From assembly GCA_030754035.1 (NCBI GenBank), contig JASMBC010000003.1, positions 1-64,000 of the forward strand: a stretch of 64,000 nucleotides of DNA, written 5' to 3'. The notes below the pieces were generated by a model that was given only the letters and a program-made list of their open reading frames with translations, was not told where the DNA came from and made no database searches. Shown in pieces: positions 11,846 to 31,455 of the stretch. This DNA is from Arenicellales bacterium. Lineage in GTDB: Bacteria; Pseudomonadota; Gammaproteobacteria; Arenicellales; UBA868. Numbering within the stretch: the stretch's first letter is position 1; each line of letters begins with the position of its first letter. Made by a program: the position numbers and the translations under genes.

Positions 11846-12754
11846 ATGCGTAACATCATCCTGGTCAATCCCCAGGCCGGCCGCGGTGCCGGACCCAACC
11901 TGTGTCGGGACCTGCTTAGGCGGCAGCCGCAGTTAACGGACGCCCGCATCATCGATGCGCCAGATGCACTACAGGCAAAGCGCGAACTGATACGTGCGCT
12001 ATCGCCGACAACGGATACGCTGGTCGTGATCGGCGGTGACGGCTCGCTGAACCTGGCAGTCGATGCTCTGCTCAAATGTTCACTGGGTAAACAGGTGCGG
12101 GTGTGTCCGATATCCGCTGGTACCGGTAGCGATTTTGCCCGCGCTTTACACCCGCGACTGGACATCGATCTCGCCTGCCGAATGCTTACTGATAGCCGGT
12201 CACGTCCGCTAGACGCACTGGAAGTTACCTGGCCCGATGGTAGTTCCCGTTACGGCATCAACACTTTCTCGGCCGGTGTCGCGGGGTTGGTCAGCGCAAC
12301 GATGGCATCCCGTGCCACCCGGAGTGGTGCGGCCTACCTGCGGGCGACTCTGTCGGCGTTTTTCCGCTACCACGCATGCAACTGTCGTGTCACAGTTGAC
12401 GGTAGGGATTGGCACGAGGGACCCCTGTACTTGCTGGCTGTGACCAATGGCAGTCACTTCGGACAGGGCATGCGGATAGCACCAAAAGCGCAATTGGACG
12501 ACGGCCTGGCCGAGGTGCTGGCGGTAACGCCGATGTCGCGCTTGCTGTTGCTGCTGCGACTTGTACGACTGTACCTGGGCAATCACCTCGGCGCACCATA
12601 CGTGCGTTACTGCCGTGGACAAACCGTGACAGTAATCCCAACAGAGAGTCTGCCGGCATTTGACCTCGATGGTGAGATGGTACCCGTCGGGCGGGTAACG
12701 ATCCGGTTACTGCCTGGGGTGATTCGGCTGGCCTGCCAAGATTCCTGTATTTGA
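11846..12754 (+). CDS. YegS/DagK-type diacylglycerol (lipid) kinase
   Basis: A protein of about 302 residues with a diacylglycerol-kinase catalytic domain. The N-terminus is IILVNPQAGRGAG, the ATP-site motif is VVIGGDGSLN, and the second glycine loop is ISAGTGSDFARAL. The C-terminal beta-sandwich ends in a conserved DLDGE-type motif (FDLDGEM). It phosphorylates diacylglycerol or a related lipid at the membrane. The family starts at MRNIILVNP (ATG 11846), not at the GTG 11801 that directly abuts the previous stop. It may be cotranscribed with the catabolic genes upstream but has no obvious functional tie to them. Confidence 0.87.
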   Translation: MRNIILVNPQAGRGAGPNLCRDLLRRQPQLTDARIIDAPDALQAKRELIRALSPTTDTLVVIGGDGSLNLAVDALLKCSLGKQVRVCPISAGTGSDFARALHPRLDIDLACRMLTDSRSRPLDALEVTWPDGSSRYGINTFSAGVAGLVSATMASRATRSGAAYLRATLSAFFRYHACNCRVTVDGRDWHEGPLYLLAVTNGSHFGQGMRIAPKAQLDDGLAEVLAVTPMSRLLLLLRLVRLYLGNHLGAPYVRYCRGQTVTVIPTESLPAFDLDGEMVPVGRVTIRLLPGVIRLACQDSCI

Positions 12755-12862
12755 TCAGGCCGAAGAATGTAGATGCTCTCAAAGCCCGCCAATACACTCG
12801 ATGCACTTGGTAGAAAACGCAGCCGCGGGGAGAAAGATCAGTTTGAAACTCAAGGTTGTCTT

Positions 12863-13267
12863 TTACACTTCTTTATCCATCATGTGCGGCTTGTATTTCA
12901 TGTCTTCTTTGAGGATGTGCTGGTCGAACCATTGCATGAGGAATTCATAGATTTTCTCCCGCAGGTCGTCCTGATCCGCTGACTGGAGCAGGGTTTCCAT
13001 CTTGCGGGCGTACTCTGCATGTAATTCGAGGTGGTCATTCACCAGTGGATAGCCCATCTCACGCAGAATCTTCTCTTCGCACCGGAAATGGAGTTGCGCG
13101 TAGTTATTCATCTTAATCAGGCACTTCATCATAGACACCGCCGAATGGTCCGGCAGGCGCGATAACTCGATGCAACTGTTGATTATCTCCACCAACTGCT
13201 GATGCTGGTTATCGAGCTCTACATGTCCGACGCTGAATTTCCCGGAATCCCAGACGATCTTTTTCAT
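12863..13267 (-). CDS. Bacteriohemerythrin
   Basis: A 134-residue four-helix hemerythrin. The di-iron ligand pattern is complete: VGHVELDNQHQQL, then HFRCEEKIL, HLELHAEY and the C-terminal QHILKEDMKY. It is a single-domain protein of normal length, thought to bind O2 in the cytoplasm for delivery, sensing or storage. ATG at 13267; the TTG at 13270 listed by the ORF track is unlikely. Upstream lies an FNR/ANR-like dyad at a spacing that fits an activated promoter, so induction under low oxygen is likely. It converges with the lipid kinase gene. Confidence 0.92.
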   Translation of the reverse strand: MKKIVWDSGKFSVGHVELDNQHQQLVEIINSCIELSRLPDHSAVSMMKCLIKMNNYAQLHFRCEEKILREMGYPLVNDHLELHAEYARKMETLLQSADQDDLREKIYEFLMQWFDQHILKEDMKYKPHMMDKEV

Positions 13268-13297
13268 CAAACCATGCTATTGACAGACATGGGCCTT

Positions 13298-13338
13298 ATC
13301 CTAGAGAGCGGCCTGGGGCTAGCCCTGATCTAGATCAA
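13298..13338 (-). promoter_or_regulatory. FNR/ANR-like box and promoter for bacteriohemerythrin
   Basis: CTGATCTAGATCAA at 13325-13338 matches the FNR/ANR consensus TTGAT-N4-ATCAA at 13 of 14 positions. On the minus strand a -10-like TAGGAT lies at 13303-13298. The distance between dyad centre and -10 centre is about 31 bases, as expected for a site centred near -41.5. The site lies about 60 bases before the hemerythrin start codon. Confidence 0.6.
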
Positions 13339-13470
13339 GAATCGAGTTGGTTAGCAATAGCCGATGGACCACTTGACCGCCCGCGACAGAGGGTCCGGCT
13401 GGGTGACAGCGTCAGCGAGAGTCGCGAGGCTTAACGGCTGGTGCGACCCTGATCCTGCCCCCGCTCAGAA

Positions 13471-14484
13471 TCAGTATCGCAACGCGCCCGAAAAGAACTG
13501 CTCGAGTTCCTGGTAGTAGCGATCCGGCTCGAGCAGCAAGCCCTCGGTGTGATCGGCGTCAGCAAAAGTGTGCAGGGTTACGCTCTTACCGATTGCCCTG
13601 GCGAAAGTCACAAGATCAGTTGCGTTGTGGTAGGGCACCCGGGAATCGGCGCTACCGTGCAACACCTGCAGCGGGCGCTCGCCCATACGCTTGATGCCAT
13701 CGGAAGGGGTCAATGCCATCAGGTCCGTGCCGCGCACCCGTGCAGCCCAGTAAGCCGCACGCCAGAGAAAACCTGGGAAACCCTGGTATTCCACTTCGTG
13801 TGTCGCCGCCTTGTTGAAATCAAAGATCGGCGCTTCCAGACTGAAGGCGGCGATTTCAGGATTCTTGGCTGCAGTAATCATGGCGGCCAGTGCCCCACCG
13901 GAAACCCCATGCACACCGATCTGCGACATCGGAATCGCCTTGGCACTTTTCAGCCAGTAGGCAGCGGTAACGATATCGTCTGACTCATCCTGGCCCGCAG
14001 AATGCCGGCTATCCTCACAGGTCGTATCACCCTGGTCACGAAGATCGATCAGTAGAACATTGAAACCTGCCTGCGCTAGCATGGTAGCCGGCATCAATGT
14101 GTCGAAGTTATGTCGCGAACTGTTGATGCCGTGCGCAACGATTACGGTTGCCTTGGAATTTCCAGAAGTCGGGGTGATCCACCAACCGGCTATGGTGACC
14201 GACCGCTCAGGATCACGAATCCGGACTTCTTCGACTGGGATATCGGGAATCCACCAGCGGGAAAGATCATGGCCGACCCAGCGATCCCAGCCGCTGCCTT
14301 TGAAGGGACCATTCCCCTGACTTGCGGTTTCAAAACGCGCCGGGGTGTTACCCAGATGGTACGGATGAATACCACAAAGAACCGCTGTGCCGGTTCGGTA
14401 TACGTAGTCGCCTACGACCAGCAGGATGCCGATGCCAAGCACCAGCACCACTGCCAGGGCAGTCAGGAATTTTCGCAGAACCAT
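13471..14484 (-). CDS. Membrane-anchored alpha/beta hydrolase
   Basis: About 337 residues. An N-terminal hydrophobic segment (residues 5-25) would anchor it in the membrane or serve as an uncleaved signal. The hydrolase domain has VAHGINSSRH near the oxyanion strand, the nucleophile elbow GVSGGA, the acid in GSADSRVPY and the histidine in DADHTEG, so the triad is intact. It looks like a serine esterase or peptidase of the BAAT/DLH/S9-like fold. The start is the ATG at 14484; a GTG at 14493 is equally possible and neither has a strong ribosome site. It is the last gene of the amine cluster, 83 bases after the aminotransferase. Confidence 0.78.
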   Translation of the reverse strand: MVLRKFLTALAVVLVLGIGILLVVGDYVYRTGTAVLCGIHPYHLGNTPARFETASQGNGPFKGSGWDRWVGHDLSRWWIPDIPVEEVRIRDPERSVTIAGWWITPTSGNSKATVIVAHGINSSRHNFDTLMPATMLAQAGFNVLLIDLRDQGDTTCEDSRHSAGQDESDDIVTAAYWLKSAKAIPMSQIGVHGVSGGALAAMITAAKNPEIAAFSLEAPIFDFNKAATHEVEYQGFPGFLWRAAYWAARVRGTDLMALTPSDGIKRMGERPLQVLHGSADSRVPYHNATDLVTFARAIGKSVTLHTFADADHTEGLLLEPDRYYQELEQFFSGALRY

Positions 14485-20995: not shown

Positions 20996-23008
20996 GTGAA
21001 AAAAATACTCTACTTAATATTCAGCCTCAGCGTAACTGCTGGCGTCTTCTATTATCTGCTTTCCGAGATCTCGATTAGCGACGTCCTCAAACTTATCTCC
21101 AACGTAGACCGACATGGATTATTGTTGTTTGTTACCTGTTCCCTGGCAATGAGCTTTTTTATTACCTGGCGCTACAAATTACTGATTTCAGTTTCCGGTT
21201 TTAGCCCCAGTCCTGTTCTGCTTTTTCTCGTAGTTTTAGTCCGCAACTTGTTTGCCGACTTATTACCGGCCCGGATCGGCACCTTCGTCTATATTTATAT
21301 CGTTAATTCCAGGCTGGGCGTAGCCCTAAGCGCCGCAACCTCAAGTTTTGTACTAGCGACCCTGTTGGACATACTGGCGTTGATGATATTGCTGATTGTG
21401 CTGGTCGGCGTAGGGTTTGATGCGTTGCCTCCCGCTTATCTTCTTGCATTTGCCATTTTGATCGGCGGGATCATCTGGGTTGTGATCTACAACCTGCCCA
21501 GGTTACTTAACTGGCTGGTTCAGATATTGCCGAAGTCTCCCACGATGGAGAAATTAACAGTTCTGTTCAGTTCTATTGAGCGTGAGGTGACGGCTTCGAG
21601 ACAGGCTGGAGTTTTTACCCGTCTGATAGCGCTATCACTGCTCGTCCGAATAACCAAGTATGCCGCTCTTTACTTCTTTTTATACGCCCTGCTTCGACCA
21701 CTGGCATATACTTTCTCAGACCTGAATGTAAGCAAGGTGCTGGTCGGCCTGGTTGCGGCGGAATCTTCGGCAAGTCTCCCGGTATCCGGTATCGCCGGGT
21801 TTGGCGCCTACGAGGGAGTTTGGGCGTTCACTTTTGAATTTTTGGGATTTCCAGAAAAAATTGCCCAGTTGACTGCAATATCACACCACCTGTTCACCCA
21901 GTTGTATGGTTACAGCATTGGGGCACTGGCTCTTATGCTACTGCTGCTGCCTATTGCCAGCCGCGCCCGCGTAACCAGTGTGGCCAACTACAATGAAAGG
22001 GCGAGTTCTTTTTACTTGAAGGTCTCACTCAGCGTCGTGCTTCTGGCGCTCGTCTTAGCCGCTTTCCTGGGTAGCCTGCCAGCACAATCCGGCGCAAAGT
22101 CGCTCGATAATCATAACCCGGTTCTGCTATCCAAAAAAGAAAAGGCGGCGCTCGAAAATCTAGGCAGCAAACTACCCAGGCGGATACTTTTTGACTCCAA
22201 CCGCTCCGGGACTTTTGGCATTTACAGCATCAGAGTTGATGGCACTGAATTAATGACACTGGCAGACGGAAAACAGCACGAAATGTATCCAAGCGTATCG
22301 CCAGATGGCCGGTGGATCGTTTATGCCTCGGCCCGCTCTACCGCCCGCCATGCGCCAGCGGAAATCTGGATTATGGATATCAACGGTAACGGCAACAGAC
22401 TGGTCGCGGCGGATGGAACCTTCCCCAGTTTCAGCAGTACTGGCAATTCTATTTATTTTGAGCGCGATAGAAGCAAGGTAATGAGCGTCAAACTAGATGG
22501 CTCACAGATGAAAGAGATTTATCCCGCAAATACCAAACCGTTCAGAAACCATGCCGTGGTCAAGCCGCGCATCTCCCCGGACGGCACCATGGTTGCGTTT
22601 ACCTCCGATAGACGCGGACGCTGGAACGCCTGGTACGATCGTCTTGACGGCAGTTCCCCGGTGCACATAAGCAAAGGCTGCGAACCCAACTGGCACCCCA
22701 ATGGGAAAGAACTGGTTCTGGTGTTATCTCGTGCCAAAAATGCCAAAGCGAAGTCCGGCCTCTTTGACTACCATTTGGCCAGTAAAGCTATTTCGGTATC
22801 ACAGGATGACGGCCCGCCTTTTGGTCATGAATATTTTCCTGCACTAAGTAGTAACGGAAAGTTTCTGTTGTATAGTGCAGCGCCGGCTGATCAACATGAT
22901 CATTTCAGCGCTAACTATCAGATATACCTTAAGGATCTCGAATCAGGCACTACGACCCGGGTAACTTTCGACAACCATACTAATCGTTGGCCGACCCTGC
23001 TGCCTTAA
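20996..23008 (+). CDS. Flippase-like (YbhN/LPG-synthase TM) domain fused to TolB-type propeller
   Basis: A 670-residue fusion. Residues 1 to about 330 hold multiple membrane segments with the pattern of the UPF0104/YbhN lysylphosphatidylglycerol-synthase transmembrane family, including the conserved PVSGIAGFGAYEG stretch near 260. After one more hydrophobic segment (about 340-362), residues about 390-670 are PD40/TolB-like blades: repeated DSNRSG, SPDGRWIVYAS, SPDGTMVAFTSDRRG and SSNGKFLLYSA. The propeller would sit in the periplasm if the last segment is a membrane crossing. No catalytic aminoacyl-transferase domain is present. GTG start at 20996. GC content is lower than in the flanking genes. 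Confidence 0.8.
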   Translation: MKKILYLIFSLSVTAGVFYYLLSEISISDVLKLISNVDRHGLLLFVTCSLAMSFFITWRYKLLISVSGFSPSPVLLFLVVLVRNLFADLLPARIGTFVYIYIVNSRLGVALSAATSSFVLATLLDILALMILLIVLVGVGFDALPPAYLLAFAILIGGIIWVVIYNLPRLLNWLVQILPKSPTMEKLTVLFSSIEREVTASRQAGVFTRLIALSLLVRITKYAALYFFLYALLRPLAYTFSDLNVSKVLVGLVAAESSASLPVSGIAGFGAYEGVWAFTFEFLGFPEKIAQLTAISHHLFTQLYGYSIGALALMLLLLPIASRARVTSVANYNERASSFYLKVSLSVVLLALVLAAFLGSLPAQSGAKSLDNHNPVLLSKKEKAALENLGSKLPRRILFDSNRSGTFGIYSIRVDGTELMTLADGKQHEMYPSVSPDGRWIVYASARSTARHAPAEIWIMDINGNGNRLVAADGTFPSFSSTGNSIYFERDRSKVMSVKLDGSQMKEIYPANTKPFRNHAVVKPRISPDGTMVAFTSDRRGRWNAWYDRLDGSSPVHISKGCEPNWHPNGKELVLVLSRAKNAKAKSGLFDYHLASKAISVSQDDGPPFGHEYFPALSSNGKFLLYSAAPADQHDHFSANYQIYLKDLESGTTTRVTFDNHTNRWPTLLP

Positions 23009-26786: not shown

Positions 26787-27353
26787 GTGGAACTTCAACT
26801 AATTACAAAGAGGTTAACCTTACGACCTCTTTCAATTAACGATGTGGGTCTGGCCATAGAGATGTTCACGGACGAGCAGGTAATGAAATATGCTGGAGGC
26901 ACAGTTGCAAAGGAGAAGATCATAGAAGAAATGGAGATGTGGACGCACCGTGGTGGTAATGGTTGCATTGGCGTATGGTGTATCTGTGATCGAACTACGG
27001 GAGAAAGTTTTGGCTCCACTGCCTTAACGCCGCTTCCAATAGATAAAGACGATACCGACTGGGAACAGGTGGTCGAAGACCAGTTACCAGATGGTGAGAT
27101 GGAGATTGGATATTTTCTGAAACGGACCGCTTGGGGAAACGGTTATGCGACAGAGGCTGTTGAACGCATATTGCGATTTGCATTTGAGGATTCTCCGCTT
27201 GAGGAGGTCGTGGCCGTTATCGACCCGAAAAACGAAAGTTCAAGGCGGGTGCTCGAAAAGACTGGGTTTTTAAGCACGGGGATTCGACGTGCTTATGGAG
27301 AAGACTTGCCGGGATTCCAGATTATTCGAGAGAATTGGTTGGGTAGGCAGTAA
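26787..27353 (+). CDS. GNAT family N-acetyltransferase
   Basis: A 188-residue acetyltransferase of the RimJ/RimL-like GNAT_3 type. It starts TKRLTLRPLS, has the acetyl-CoA loop region KRTAWGNGYATEAVE near residues 112-126 and the conserved NESSRRVLEKTGF near 150-162. It acetylates an unknown amine on a protein or small molecule. The start is a GTG at 26787 without a strong ribosome site. Base composition is AT-richer than the core genes around it. It lies between repeat copies 1 and 2, as expected for an acquired cassette. Confidence 0.87.
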   Translation: MELQLITKRLTLRPLSINDVGLAIEMFTDEQVMKYAGGTVAKEKIIEEMEMWTHRGGNGCIGVWCICDRTTGESFGSTALTPLPIDKDDTDWEQVVEDQLPDGEMEIGYFLKRTAWGNGYATEAVERILRFAFEDSPLEEVVAVIDPKNESSRRVLEKTGFLSTGIRRAYGEDLPGFQIIRENWLGRQ

Positions 27354-27362
27354 CTAACCTAA

Positions 27363-27434
27363 CCTCCCCCACCAAATCCTCTGCTCTGGTTGCTTCTCGG
27401 TAACAGGAATAAAATAGCGGTATGAAGCATCTGG
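27363..27434 (+). repeat. Dispersed cassette-region repeat, copy 2
   Basis: Begins ten bases after the GNAT stop codon. It shares 41 identical bases with copy 1 and ends in AATAAAATAGCGGTATGAAGCATCTGG. Its terminal ATG opens a seven-codon frame (MKHLGLS). It precedes the nitroreductase-like gene. Confidence 0.8.
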
Positions 27435-27474
27435 GATTAAGCTAAGCCAATAAATTAGCTGTAACTATTTTCAA

Positions 27475-27909
27475 ATGTTTTGGAGATTAATAAATCCGCT
27501 TACCATAGCGATTGCAAAATCGCCTCTGCATTTCTTGATCAGTCAGAATCTTGTTGTATTGAATTTTGTAGGAATCAGAACTGGTAAAAACTATGCACTT
27601 CCAGTAAGTTATTTTGAGGAGCCAGAGGGAAAACTAAGTTGTGTAACAGATAGACGAAATATCTGGTGGAGGAATCTTCTTCAAACATCTAGCATCAAAA
27701 TTTTGTACAAAGGTAGACTAACTGATGCTCTAGTTACCGTTGAGCATGAGAATAATAGGATAATTGCCGATCAACTAGAAGCCCTTTGTTCACACAGCAG
27801 AATTGATGGATATTTTGCTAAAGTCGGTTATGAAAATGGCAAGCCAATACGAAAAGATATAGAGGAAGCCGCCTCAATAATGACTTTGATACAACTTTCT
27901 ATATATTGA
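27475..27909 (+). CDS. Nitroreductase/quinone reductase family (deazaflavin-type split barrel)
   Basis: A 144-residue protein resembling the PF04075 split-barrel family (nitroreductase family deazaflavin-dependent oxidoreductase). Evidence is the SPLHFLIS opening, GIRTGKNYALPVSY and RRNIWWRNL. Members bind F420 or a flavin and reduce quinones or nitro compounds, but F420 use cannot be judged here. The gene is strongly AT-rich compared with the backbone and lies between repeat copies 2 and 3. The ATG at 27475 has no clear ribosome site. Confidence 0.7.
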   Translation: MFWRLINPLTIAIAKSPLHFLISQNLVVLNFVGIRTGKNYALPVSYFEEPEGKLSCVTDRRNIWWRNLLQTSSIKILYKGRLTDALVTVEHENNRIIADQLEALCSHSRIDGYFAKVGYENGKPIRKDIEEAASIMTLIQLSIY

Positions 27910-27944
27910 ACGTTTTGATCAAGGTTGCAGTTTTAGCGGGCTGT

Positions 27945-27974
27945 TGGGAATAAGATAGCGGTATGAAGTATCTG
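27945..27974 (+). repeat. Dispersed cassette-region repeat, copy 3 (right half only)
   Basis: Only the distal half is present: GGGAATAAGATAGCGGTATG followed by AAGTATCTG. The ATG opens an eight-codon frame (MKYLFAIS) whose stop is followed at once by the GAGGAG ribosome site of the GFA gene. Confidence 0.75.
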
Positions 27975-28001
27975 TTTGCCATATCTTGAGGAGACATGGA
28001 A

Positions 28002-28415
28002 ATGAAAATCGATGGAGGTTGTTTGTGCACGAACGTCACCTATGAGGCAGAGGTGAACCCAGAGAGAGTTGTTATTTGTCATTGCACGGATTGCCAGACC
28101 CACTCTGGAACCGCATACGGGGTCGTTGTGGGCATCATTGACGAGTGCTTTCATCTATTGAGCGGCACCTTGAAGACCTACGAGAAAATTGCCGAAAGTG
28201 GAACGGTCAGAGCGCTCGCATTCTGCCCAGAGTGTGGCACCCGTATTTACGCAAAGACGGTTGGAGAGGGTTCATCCCTCTTCGGATTGCGCGTCGGAAC
28301 TGTACGCCAACGCGCTCAACTAATACCTAAAGCCCAAGTTTGGTGCCGATCAGCGCAAGAGTGGGTGGGCGACTTAACATCGATTCCAAAATACGAAAAA
28401 CAGCCAACATTGTAA
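28002..28415 (+). CDS. GFA family (CENP-V/GFA zinc-binding) protein
   Basis: A 137-residue protein with the zinc cysteines of the glutathione-dependent formaldehyde-activating (GFA) fold: GGCLCTNVTY, CHCTDCQ and CPECGTRIY. Most members have unproven chemistry, often glutathione-adduct binding. The GAGGAG at 27988-27993 is well spaced for the ATG at 28002 and too close for the ATG at 27996 in the ORF track. It lies between repeat copies 3 and 4. A second, unrelated-context GFA protein is encoded at 56281-56691. Confidence 0.88.
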   Translation: MKIDGGCLCTNVTYEAEVNPERVVICHCTDCQTHSGTAYGVVVGIIDECFHLLSGTLKTYEKIAESGTVRALAFCPECGTRIYAKTVGEGSSLFGLRVGTVRQRAQLIPKAQVWCRSAQEWVGDLTSIPKYEKQPTL

Positions 28416-28461
28416 TAAGGCCAGCTCCTCACTAGCACAAGTGGTAACCGCTAACTAATCC

Positions 28462-28510
28462 AACCTCTCCACCAAATCCTCCGCTCTTAAGTGATAGGGT
28501 AGCGGTATGG
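28462..28510 (+). repeat. Dispersed cassette-region repeat, copy 4 (variant)
   Basis: AACCTCTCCACCAAATCCTC matches the left half of copies 1 and 2; the middle differs (CTCTTAAGTGATAGGG); the end TAGCGGTATGG matches again. It lies between the GFA and SnoaL-like genes, so the repeat is diverging but holds its position. Confidence 0.7.
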
Positions 28511-28562
28511 CTTACGGAGCGGTGAGTTTGAAACGCACATTGGTAACAGTCAGGAGAAAATC

Positions 28563-28943
28563 ATGTCTCATCCTATAACTATAGAATATCTCGATGAAAT
28601 TTGTCAGGAATTTAACCGGCAAGACGTGGATGCGATTCTTTCCCACTTTGCCACAGACTGTGTCTGGCTGATGGCACGGGGTCCCAATTCACCGGAGGGC
28701 CGGCGCTGTGTCGGGAAAGAGGAGATTGGCACTGTTCTTAGAAAGCGCTACGTCGAGATTCCCGATATGCGCTGGGAAGAGATGCGCCATTGGGTATGTG
28801 ACGAAACCAAGGCCATTTCGGAATGGGTCGTACGCGGTACACCAGGAAGCGGAGAGGCATTTGAGTATCTTGGTTGTGATCTTTGGGAGTTTAAAGATGG
28901 CTTGGTGACTAAAAAGGACACCTACTGGAAATCTATTTCATAA
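28563..28943 (+). CDS. SnoaL-like / NTF2-fold protein
   Basis: A 126-residue cone-shaped NTF2-like protein of the SnoaL polyketide-cyclase type: an N-terminal helix EICQEFNRQDVDAILSHFA and a C-terminal DLWEFKDGLVTKKDTYWK are typical. Such proteins act as isomerases, cyclases or binding proteins; no substrate can be named. A CAGGAG ribosome site precedes the ATG at 28563. It lies between repeat copies 4 and 5 in the accessory region. Confidence 0.82.
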   Translation: MSHPITIEYLDEICQEFNRQDVDAILSHFATDCVWLMARGPNSPEGRRCVGKEEIGTVLRKRYVEIPDMRWEEMRHWVCDETKAISEWVVRGTPGSGEAFEYLGCDLWEFKDGLVTKKDTYWKSIS

Positions 28944-28966
28944 GGCCCGTGACAATGGAGTAGGCG

Positions 28967-29010
28967 TTAGTCTCCCCGCCAGATCCTGTGCTCTTAAATG
29001 CGCATAGCGC
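28967..29010 (+). repeat. Dispersed cassette-region repeat, copy 5 (degenerate)
   Basis: GTCTCCCCGCCAGATCCTGT resembles the left half of the repeat, and GCTCTTAAATGCG matches the middle of copies 4 and 6. The conserved distal end is lost. It lies between the SnoaL-like gene and the EamA transporter gene. Confidence 0.6.
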
Positions 29011-29144
29011 ATCTGCCGTTACGCGTCTGATGGCTGCCATTTTGAAATCTCACTGTGCCAAAAGTATGCCAAGCGAGAGTTCTCGAGAAAGTTAGGCTGG
29101 CGCTTTGCACGTAGCCGGCTGTGGAAAACGACGGACAAACGTCG

Positions 29145-30050
29145 ATGCGTGATACGGAATCAACCCGCCGGCGGTTCTGGTTAGGTAGCGCCGCTGCCCT
29201 GATGTCGGCCGTTGCGTTTTCGTCCAATGTCGCACTGTCGAAGCTGGCTTATGACTTTGGCACGAATCTGCATGCGCTCAATCTAATCCGGGCTGCTGTT
29301 TTTTTAGGTTGTCTGCTGGTGGCGGTATGGTTGTCCGGCTCTCAAGTTTCTATAAATCGGAATGAACTGTATCGTTGTCTAGCTCTCGGGGTATTGCTGT
29401 GTGCCGAGATGTATCTGTTGTTGGCGTCAATTCTTTTTATTCCAGTCGCTCTGGCAATACTCGTTTTCTATACTTATCCGATAATGATCGCCCTTTGGAC
29501 CTGGCGCACAGGGCAATGCCATTTTTCTTACTTTGGTCTGGGTGTTATGGCACTGGCCTTTATCGGCTTGATTATCACCTTGACTGGATCGGGTAGGCTG
29601 TTGGTAGGCTGGGATGGCAGAAACGGTATTGCCCTTGCCTTCATTGCCGCGATTTGCCTGGCGGCTATACTGCTGCTTAGCGAACGGGTTCTGGCAAGGC
29701 AGCCGGCAAAGATCATGATGCTCTACATGCTGTTCGGTGCAACAGCTGTGGTAGGTTTTGTGTCCTTATTTATCGCCGAGTTAACTTGGCCGGCGTCCCT
29801 CCAGGGGTGGCTGGCTTTGTGCGGCAGTGCCGCCTTGTACGTTGTAGCCACAATGCTGTTATTCAAGGCGGTTGACCTAGTCGGCTCCCTGCAGACAGCC
29901 ATTATCGATAACACCTCGCCCGTATGGGCCATGATTCTTGGGGTCATTGTGCTGGGGCAGTGGCTGACTGCACAGCAGGTGATGGGGGCGAGTGTCACGG
30001 TTGCCGCGGTGATGTTACTGCAGTGGATAGCGCGACCAAAGACTCGGTAG
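29145..30050 (+). CDS. EamA family (DMT) transporter
   Basis: About 301 residues with roughly ten hydrophobic segments and two EamA repeats, the layout of drug/metabolite exporters in the inner membrane. The cargo is unknown. A short basic N-terminus (STRRRF) precedes the first membrane segment. I prefer the ATG at 29145; the GTG at 29121 is the ORF-track choice. It is the last of the small genes on this side of the repeat-bearing region and is richer in GC than the nitroreductase-like gene. Confidence 0.86.
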   Translation: MRDTESTRRRFWLGSAAALMSAVAFSSNVALSKLAYDFGTNLHALNLIRAAVFLGCLLVAVWLSGSQVSINRNELYRCLALGVLLCAEMYLLLASILFIPVALAILVFYTYPIMIALWTWRTGQCHFSYFGLGVMALAFIGLIITLTGSGRLLVGWDGRNGIALAFIAAICLAAILLLSERVLARQPAKIMMLYMLFGATAVVGFVSLFIAELTWPASLQGWLALCGSAALYVVATMLLFKAVDLVGSLQTAIIDNTSPVWAMILGVIVLGQWLTAQQVMGASVTVAAVMLLQWIARPKTR

Positions 30051-30144
30051 ACGTTATGAACTGATACACGAGGTGGACCCGCTCATCTGCCCCCTTGCTC
30101 AGGTATTACCATAAGCGATTAAAGCCGGCGTTCGTCCAATTTCT

Positions 30145-30219
30145 GGGGGGCGTATACGGGGCAACTTCTAACCTCTCCCTTTACCATTGCTAGGCTCTAA
30201 AGTTACGTATACGCCCCCC
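30145..30219. repeat. Perfect 14-bp inverted repeat in a gene-free gap
   Basis: The 349-base gap 30051-30399 has no gene. It holds GGGGGGCGTATACG at 30145-30158 and its exact reverse complement at 30206-30219, separated by 47 bases. A second, shorter inverted pair (ATTGCCCC near 30224 and GGGGCAAT near 30278) follows. The structure could be a small non-autonomous element end pair, a recombination site or a transcribed hairpin. There is no T-run after it. Confidence 0.7.
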
Positions 30220-30399
30220 ATATATTGCCCCTACGGCCTTTCTAAAGTAGTAGCAGATAGGCTCGTCCCTCTCTTCGCAGGGGCAATGCAAATCTCGGGT
30301 TCGTGTAAAACCCCTTAAATAGGCTGATTCTGGTACCCCCTTGAAAGCACCCTTCGTTTGCCCATTCACCTACAAGAAGTGGGGGAGTAGGATAAGGCA

Positions 30400-31455
30400 A
30401 TGAAACGCCTTCTTTTCTTATTGCTGGCGACTACTTTGCTGGTGATTGCTCCGCTCACCACTTTTGCCTGTCCAGAAGGTCAAAAAGCAAATAGCCGGAC
30501 GGGTGATTGTGAGCCGATACCGGGTCGGAAAAAAGCAGACCCTAACAAGATCAAACTAGATTCCTATGATATTGAATCTACTTTGCCGTCAACTGCGTCT
30601 GATTGGAGCAAAAACTCCCTCAAAGTTGACGCGACGTGGTCGTTCCCGGCTGAGGGAAAGCAGCCGTACCCGCTAGTCATCTATCTCCTCTCAAGCGGGG
30701 GGTACTGGAGTAGCTATGATGGGAAATGGATTAAATGGTTCAACAATCAAGGCTTTGCCACCTTATGGGTTGATCAGTACACCGCGCGAGGTATGAGCCT
30801 TAAAAAGGGTCTTGGTACCAAACAAAGTGGAATGTCGGATGCCTCCTATGTGAGCGATGCGTATGCCGCGATTAGAACAGCGAAAGCCGATCCGCGTATC
30901 GATCCCGAACGCATTGTAACTTTTGGGATGTCTTGGGGCGGTGGTGTGCAAATGTATTTAATGAGCCAATGGTTTCAGAAACAACTAGGTAATGGCAACG
31001 TCAATATTGCCGGCCATATCGCCTTGGGGCCAGCGTGTTATTTAACGGTTGAAAAACCTAAACCCACTACTGGCAAGATGCTTATGCTGTTGGGTGAGAA
31101 GGATAATTGGAATCAGCCAAAACCGTGCAGGAATTACGCAAAACGCCTACAGCAAGCTGGAGCGTCAATTACAGTGGAGACTGTGAAAGATGCAAACCAC
31201 GCTTGGGATTTGGATAAGACTACGAAGAGCTATCGTGCTGTTGTCTACCATTGCGATATTCGTTTCGACCCTGAAACGATGAACGCAAGAAATGTAGAGG
31301 AAGGGATAAAGGTCAATTTTTCGAGAGATGGTTGGGGGAGTCTTTGGGATAAATGTGAAAAGGAGGCAAAAGTAACCACTGGGGGAACAAAGAAGCAACT
31401 TAACTGGACACGTGAGCGTGTGAGAAAACATCTTGCAGACACGCTTGGTATGTAG
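30400..31455 (+). CDS. Secreted dienelactone-hydrolase-like esterase
   Basis: A 351-residue protein with a clear signal peptide (MKRLLFLLLATTLLVIAP..., cleavage likely near TTFA-CPEG) and an alpha/beta-hydrolase domain of the dienelactone-hydrolase type. The triad candidates are Ser in GMSWGGG, Asp in LLGEKDNW and His in DANHAWD. It is probably a periplasmic or secreted esterase. A purine-rich site (GGGGGAGTAGGATAAGG) precedes the ATG at 30400. Lower GC and the long gaps on both sides place it in the accessory region. Confidence 0.82.
   Translation: MKRLLFLLLATTLLVIAPLTTFACPEGQKANSRTGDCEPIPGRKKADPNKIKLDSYDIESTLPSTASDWSKNSLKVDATWSFPAEGKQPYPLVIYLLSSGGYWSSYDGKWIKWFNNQGFATLWVDQYTARGMSLKKGLGTKQSGMSDASYVSDAYAAIRTAKADPRIDPERIVTFGMSWGGGVQMYLMSQWFQKQLGNGNVNIAGHIALGPACYLTVEKPKPTTGKMLMLLGEKDNWNQPKPCRNYAKRLQQAGASITVETVKDANHAWDLDKTTKSYRAVVYHCDIRFDPETMNARNVEEGIKVNFSRDGWGSLWDKCEKEAKVTTGGTKKQLNWTRERVRKHLADTLGM

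Follow-up and report, generated by a model that had tools for sequence, protein, structure and literature searches.

A flippase-like membrane domain of the YbhN/UPF0104 type and a TolB-like β-propeller, joined in one protein or encoded by neighboring genes, constitute a real and undescribed part of envelope building that recurs across phyla. The role in envelope building is assigned because the pair recurs, from phylum to phylum, beside genes resembling those of a surface-glycan or glycolipid pathway. A search of the literature, with most subscription journals outside its reach, returned no description of a flippase-propeller architecture. Both domains are known; what appears to be new, as far as that search reaches, is a flippase-like protein that has a periplasmic propeller built in, together with its conserved operon.

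To our knowledge, the YbhN/UPF0104 family is widespread, with a substrate known for few of its members. With a periplasmic domain of its own and a conserved operon, the version described here provides a defined place in which to seek the substrate, the direction of its movement, and its acceptor. Moreover, an operon that includes a hexapeptide transferase, an amidotransferase, an epimerase, and glycosyltransferases points to an uncharacterized surface glycan or glycolipid common to several phyla.

Domain content and fold of the fusion protein

The features below are located in the window, that is, the whole 64,000-nucleotide stretch of DNA that was analyzed; the evidence for each is given in parentheses.

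20996..23008, + strand: flippase-propeller fusion gene, a single unbroken frame with GTG start and TAA stop, 670 aa (ORF, translation, Pfam, full-length fused homologues)
21017..21901, + strand: LPG_synthase_TM (YbhN/UPF0104-type) domain, residues ~8-302 (PF03706, invariant columns, AlphaFold2 helices)
22001..22072, + strand: extra transmembrane helix, residues 336-359 (AlphaFold2 helix, hydropathy peak)
22181..22999, + strand: six-bladed PD40/TolB-like β-propeller, residues 396-668 (Pfam PD40, AlphaFold2 strands, Foldseek)
22679..22693, + strand: C562-x3-W566 motif, with C562 invariant in 70 homologues (alignments)
22826..22903, + strand: HEYFP (611-615) and HxH (H634, H636), at least 90% conserved, a candidate ligand or metal site (alignments)

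The sequence-only reading of this gene had described its product as a YbhN-type membrane half followed by a TolB-like propeller, and the domain search and structure prediction that it recommended recovered a membrane bundle, a linker helix, and a propeller, bearing out both assignments. The Pfam model LPG_synthase_TM (PF03706) matches residues 8-302 with an E-value of 9.1e-23 and 81.6 bits against a gathering threshold of 33.4, and the match spans model positions 2-295 of 302, which places the protein in the family by score. The final AlphaFold2 model, computed from an alignment of 70 homologues (mean pLDDT 87.1, pTM 0.72) and superseding an earlier one from 12 sequences (pLDDT 73.8), forms a helical membrane bundle over residues 1-322. 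Across the 70 aligned sequences, the membrane half retains without exception R83, D88, P91, R93, G95, D125, R218, K221, Y222, E256, P262, G270, E273, G284, H298, Q302, Y306, and G309. The protein falls outside the TIGR00374 flippase-like subfamily, scoring 17.4 bits, under the curated cut-off of 43.2, and a search of the membrane domain against PDB sequences gave no match up to E 10.

Beyond the bundle, the model contains the additional helix at residues 336-359, followed by a poorly ordered stretch at 361-374. A hydropathy peak covers residues 343-361, and the short loop ahead of it (330-342) carries two K/R residues and one E. In the model, this helix should bring the chain to the periplasmic side.

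For the C-terminal half, Pfam reports PD40 in four stretches (E 1.3e-22, 79.6 bits against a cut-off of 20.9), and the modeled strands at 396-668 can be counted as six blades, with a C-terminal strand closing the propeller. Repeats over threshold and a closed fold, found by Pfam, AlphaFold2, and Foldseek together, make this half a PD40 β-propeller. Among PDB folds, Foldseek ranks TolB first (1c5k, E 1.6e-14) and then the Agrobacterium PD40 protein Atu1656 (2ojh, TMt 0.71); a sequence-profile search matched the same two proteins in the order 2ojh, then TolB. Within the propeller, C562 and G438 are invariant across the 70 sequences, and H611, E612, Y613, P615, H634, and H636 are conserved in at least 90% of them. 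On the pattern of conservation, the HEYFP and HxH residues are candidates for a ligand or metal site.

The base composition of the gene, which the same reading had described as deviating from that of its neighbors, does lie below theirs in GC (neighbors 0.56-0.62) but is unexceptional in the window. GC is 0.498 and GC3 is 0.553 against means of 0.572 and 0.656 for the genes of the window (z -1.4 and -1.1), and 4 of 54 window genes have a lower GC. Forty-six other fused genes differ little in GC from their own loci (mean +0.016). Horizontal transfer argued from base composition was rejected, as the signal is weak (z -1.4). Elsewhere in the window, positions 26787-31455 hold low-GC genes (GC 0.36-0.53) flanked by high-GC genes; a 144-aa ORF within this segment, with no Pfam match, is a stronger composition outlier than the fusion gene.

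Fused and separate forms across phyla

The fused architecture recurs well beyond the window. Full-length fused homologues with ~25-31% identity occur in the window's own family and order, and others are found in Desulfobulbaceae, Desulfobacteraceae, Arenicella, Acidiferrobacterales, Verrucomicrobia, Kiritimatiellota, Lentisphaerae, Auribacterota, and one planctomycete; identity overall is about 25-43%. The nearest, L051 from a Deltaproteobacteria MAG, is 43% identical over its whole length, junction included. Some genomes do have the halves as separate genes, as would be expected had a sequencing error merged two genes here, yet one open frame runs across both domains in dozens of independently assembled genomes, and the identity to L051 continues through the junction; a frameshift or assembly chimera is thereby ruled out, and the probability of an artefact is close to nil. 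Neither of the outcomes that could have overturned the original description was found: a propeller does make up the C-terminal half, and no error has joined two genes into this frame.

The separate forms take several arrangements. Tandem genes, flippase then propeller, lie on the same strand with a gap of ~30 nt or less in G117 (L174) and G253 (L180, which shares a contig with L066), and the halves are encoded on different contigs in G286 and G170. The stand-alone flippases nearest to the membrane half of the window protein are those of G057 (53% identity) and G052 (46%), and in both genomes the flippase gene adjoins a divergently transcribed gene for a lipoprotein propeller (lipobox LLAAC or LSAC, read by eye). 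These lipoprotein propellers are distant relatives of the window propeller (pairwise BLASTP E 1e-6 and 5e-6); the family HMM matches that of G057 at E 6e-11, and that of G052 has no family-HMM or Pfam match. A flippase with a divergent lipoprotein propeller is located at L032:9412-11511 and at L031:2091-4310, and the L032 pair sits inside a pathway cluster, with a hexapeptide gene at 12423-13187 and a second YbhN-type flippase (FLIP2) at 13200-14213. Large spermidine-synthase-like proteins also recur close to split propeller or flippase genes (L039:6932-9766, L045:6546-9413, L032:15596-17746).

An N-terminal membrane segment, in most cases with a K/R-rich start, is carried by separate propellers of the main subfamily (G286, G170, G117, G253, G035, G033, and G056). 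Because separate propellers bear N-terminal anchors or lipoboxes and the fused form has the extra helix, a location in the periplasm is probable for the propeller. The occurrence of the halves as separate genes and as neighbors suggests a functional tie between them. In a tree of the membrane domain, the window protein clusters with L051 and with the stand-alone proteins of G057 and G052, outside the main fused group, and FLIP2-type flippases form a distinct third group.

Conserved gene cluster

In the window, the fusion gene is solitary, with a flavin amine oxidase gene on one side and, on the other, a group encoding DUF3501, an Fe-S protein, rubrerythrin, and a LysR protein. Many of its relatives occupy a recurring cluster that includes a left-handed-β-helix (hexapeptide) transferase, FLIP2, an AsnB-like amidotransferase whose nearest model is the XrtA/PEP-CTERM amidotransferase (score under cut-off), an HpnA-like epimerase that scores far under the HpnA model cut-off, a GlpO-like FAD enzyme, a GT4 glycosyltransferase, an ArnC-like GT2, and PMT-type and S8-like proteins. 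In 11 Desulfobulbaceae and Desulfobacteraceae loci, the hexapeptide, FLIP2, and fusion genes are adjacent on the same strand and mostly overlap, some of the overlaps stemming from the mechanical choice of starts. The operon-like trio is also carried by a cultivable relative, Desulfobulbus alkaliphilus DSM 24258 (L074). In L107, the GlpO-like oxidoreductase, GT4, AsnB, epimerase, and GT2 genes lie on that strand as well.

Of 35 loci flanked on both sides by 4 kb or more, 25 have one or more pathway families and 20 have two or more. FLIP2 adjoins the fusion-family gene, or lies close to it, in 28 analyzed loci. Across 109 genomes of the order, a hexapeptide gene occurs in 44 of the 49 that have a fusion-family match and in 21 of the 60 that do not (Fisher p 4e-9, a value that takes no account of shared ancestry). 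Fusion-family and hexapeptide genes share a contig in 22 pairs, most of them no more than 11 kb apart. A separate short contig of the window's genome, C91 (L172:1302-5493), encodes an S8-like protein together with FLIP2 and the hexapeptide transferase, and no match to the GT4 or the epimerase was found in this genome, which is 69% complete. A second, partial hexapeptide gene lies on its contig C22.

The operon-like cluster of Desulfobulbaceae is seen at L107:2069-13042, L057, L068, and L128. It is fullest in L107, where the set comprises the GlpO-like, GT4, AsnB, epimerase, hexapeptide transferase, and GT2 genes and two YbhN-type proteins; the cable bacterium Electronema (L128) holds part of it. 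The cluster looks like an undescribed pathway for a glycolipid or surface glycan. In the window's family, a protein of 532-545 aa without a Pfam match adjoins lysA, and usually AsnB, near the fusion gene at nine loci (for example, L036:2653-4290).

Proposed role, alternatives, and known systems

How a single protein might couple these two domains can be framed as follows. The membrane half would be a lipid translocase or scramblase of the inner membrane with the MprF-flippase/YbhN fold, and the single extra transmembrane helix would tether the six-bladed propeller at the periplasmic face. The protein most likely acts late in a pathway whose product, a glycolipid or lipid-linked surface glycan, is made in the cytoplasm; the lipid-linked product would cross the inner membrane through the membrane domain, and the propeller would take it over or recruit a periplasmic partner that does so. 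The computations establish the domains, the fold, the preservation of the fusion from phylum to phylum, the existence of separate and sometimes adjacent halves, and the linkage to the cluster; we infer that lipid is moved, that the cluster product is the substrate, and that the propeller binds this product or a partner. The reading as a whole, of a translocase in the inner membrane that carries a glycolipid or lipid-linked glycan and has a propeller tethered in the periplasm to receive or present the product, is given an even chance of being right. A broader version, an undescribed envelope pathway in which an MprF-type translocase in multiple phyla would flip a lipid-linked glycan and pass it straight to a tethered propeller that captures it, with a lipoprotein propeller acting in trans in some lineages, is tentative and rather doubtful.

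The movement of the cluster product, with its capture, presentation, or docking by the propeller, is proposed by analogy with lipid scrambling by MprF and with the context of gpgF. In vitro, the MprF transport domain is a promiscuous scramblase that accepts many lipids, and bulk lipid transport has been proposed for YbhN and other stand-alone members (PMC11980842); the literature search returned no paper demonstrating lipid movement by a stand-alone YbhN-type protein. In the Pseudomonas aeruginosa GlcN-PG operon, the YbhN-type gene gpgF comes after GT4 and deacetylase genes, its flippase role being predicted only, and gpgF mutants retain GlcN-PG, which counts against the translocase reading (PMC12713373). 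Also against a translocase within the pathway are the solitary position of the gene in the window, the lack of a GT4 or epimerase match in its 69% complete genome, and the surroundings of L051, where RNase III, Der, and ABC-transporter-like genes are found and pathway genes are not. Moreover, as a second YbhN-type flippase is frequent in the cluster, the main transporter may be a protein other than the fusion.

That last point leads to a different division of labor, in which the membrane half would be an anchor that senses lipid or acts as a scaffold, holding the propeller and the enzymes of the pathway in position, and FLIP2 would do the moving. A separate FLIP2 accompanies the fusion-family gene at the 28 loci and occurs in the genome of the window too, its tree group is distinct from the fusion-type membrane domains, and several genomes keep the propeller with just one helix. 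Against this, the invariant residues R83, D88, R93, D125, R218, K221, E256, E273, and H298 suit a working pathway and not a plain anchor; this explanation is judged unlikely, though a serious alternative. Also a serious alternative, but a little less probable again, is a propeller that acts as an enzyme on the flipped lipid-linked glycan through its HEYFP, HxH, and cysteine residues, perhaps metal-dependent like oligogalacturonate lyase: the conservation of H611, E612, Y613, H634, H636, and C562 is more than a pure scaffold requires, and the Mn-bound lyase 3pe7 is a weak match (sequence E 6e-7; fold E 5e-8). The sequence match is, however, confined to lyase residues 59-120, TolB, a binding protein, matches far better, and the lipoprotein propellers of G057 and G052 are without the HxH motif.

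The sequence-only reading had envisaged lipid movement coupled to an envelope partner. Its general sense fits the conserved neighbors, which accord with the movement of an envelope lipid or glycan, whereas the specific connection to Tol-Pal found no support. A propeller that binds Pal or another envelope partner, and so couples lipid movement to outer-membrane maintenance, would accord with TolB being the closest solved fold and the best NCBIfam match. Tol-Pal membership was nevertheless rejected, as Pfam finds no TolB_N domain (PF04052) in the fusion protein and the score is 88.1 bits, far under the cut-off of 343 for the TolB equivalog TIGR02800. A search for PF04052 in the window's genome gave none, a result that carries little information at 69% completeness. 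No Tol or Pal family was matched among the annotated neighbors of fusion-family genes, where the linkage is instead to glycan and lipid biosynthesis; the Tol-Pal explanation is thus highly improbable. Two points had lain out of sight of that reading: the domains also exist as separate and often adjacent genes, and the fusion occurs within a conserved biosynthetic cluster.

The known systems closest to the protein compare with it as follows. Like TolB, it has a six-bladed PD40 propeller, with TolB as the best fold match, but TolB is soluble, whereas this propeller is membrane-tethered, lacks the TolB N-terminal domain, and has no Tol-Pal genes seen nearby. Oligogalacturonate lyase (3pe7, 3c5m) shares a PD40-type propeller, and a metal site via the conserved histidines is possible, although the sequence match falls short of the lyase metal site. 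With the MprF transport domain, the fusion protein shares PF03706 over the whole length of that domain, but it is not an MprF: in place of the aminoacyl-tRNA-dependent synthase domain it has the extra helix and the PD40 propeller, predicted to be periplasmic, unlike the MprF synthase, which acts on a lipid of the inner leaflet. YbhN, GpgF, and AglD2 (COG0392, TIGR00374) belong to the same membrane family and likewise occur beside GT4-type glycosyltransferase genes, but are without a propeller; the window protein branches divergently from them, and FLIP2, found in the same clusters, is more typical of the YbhN type.
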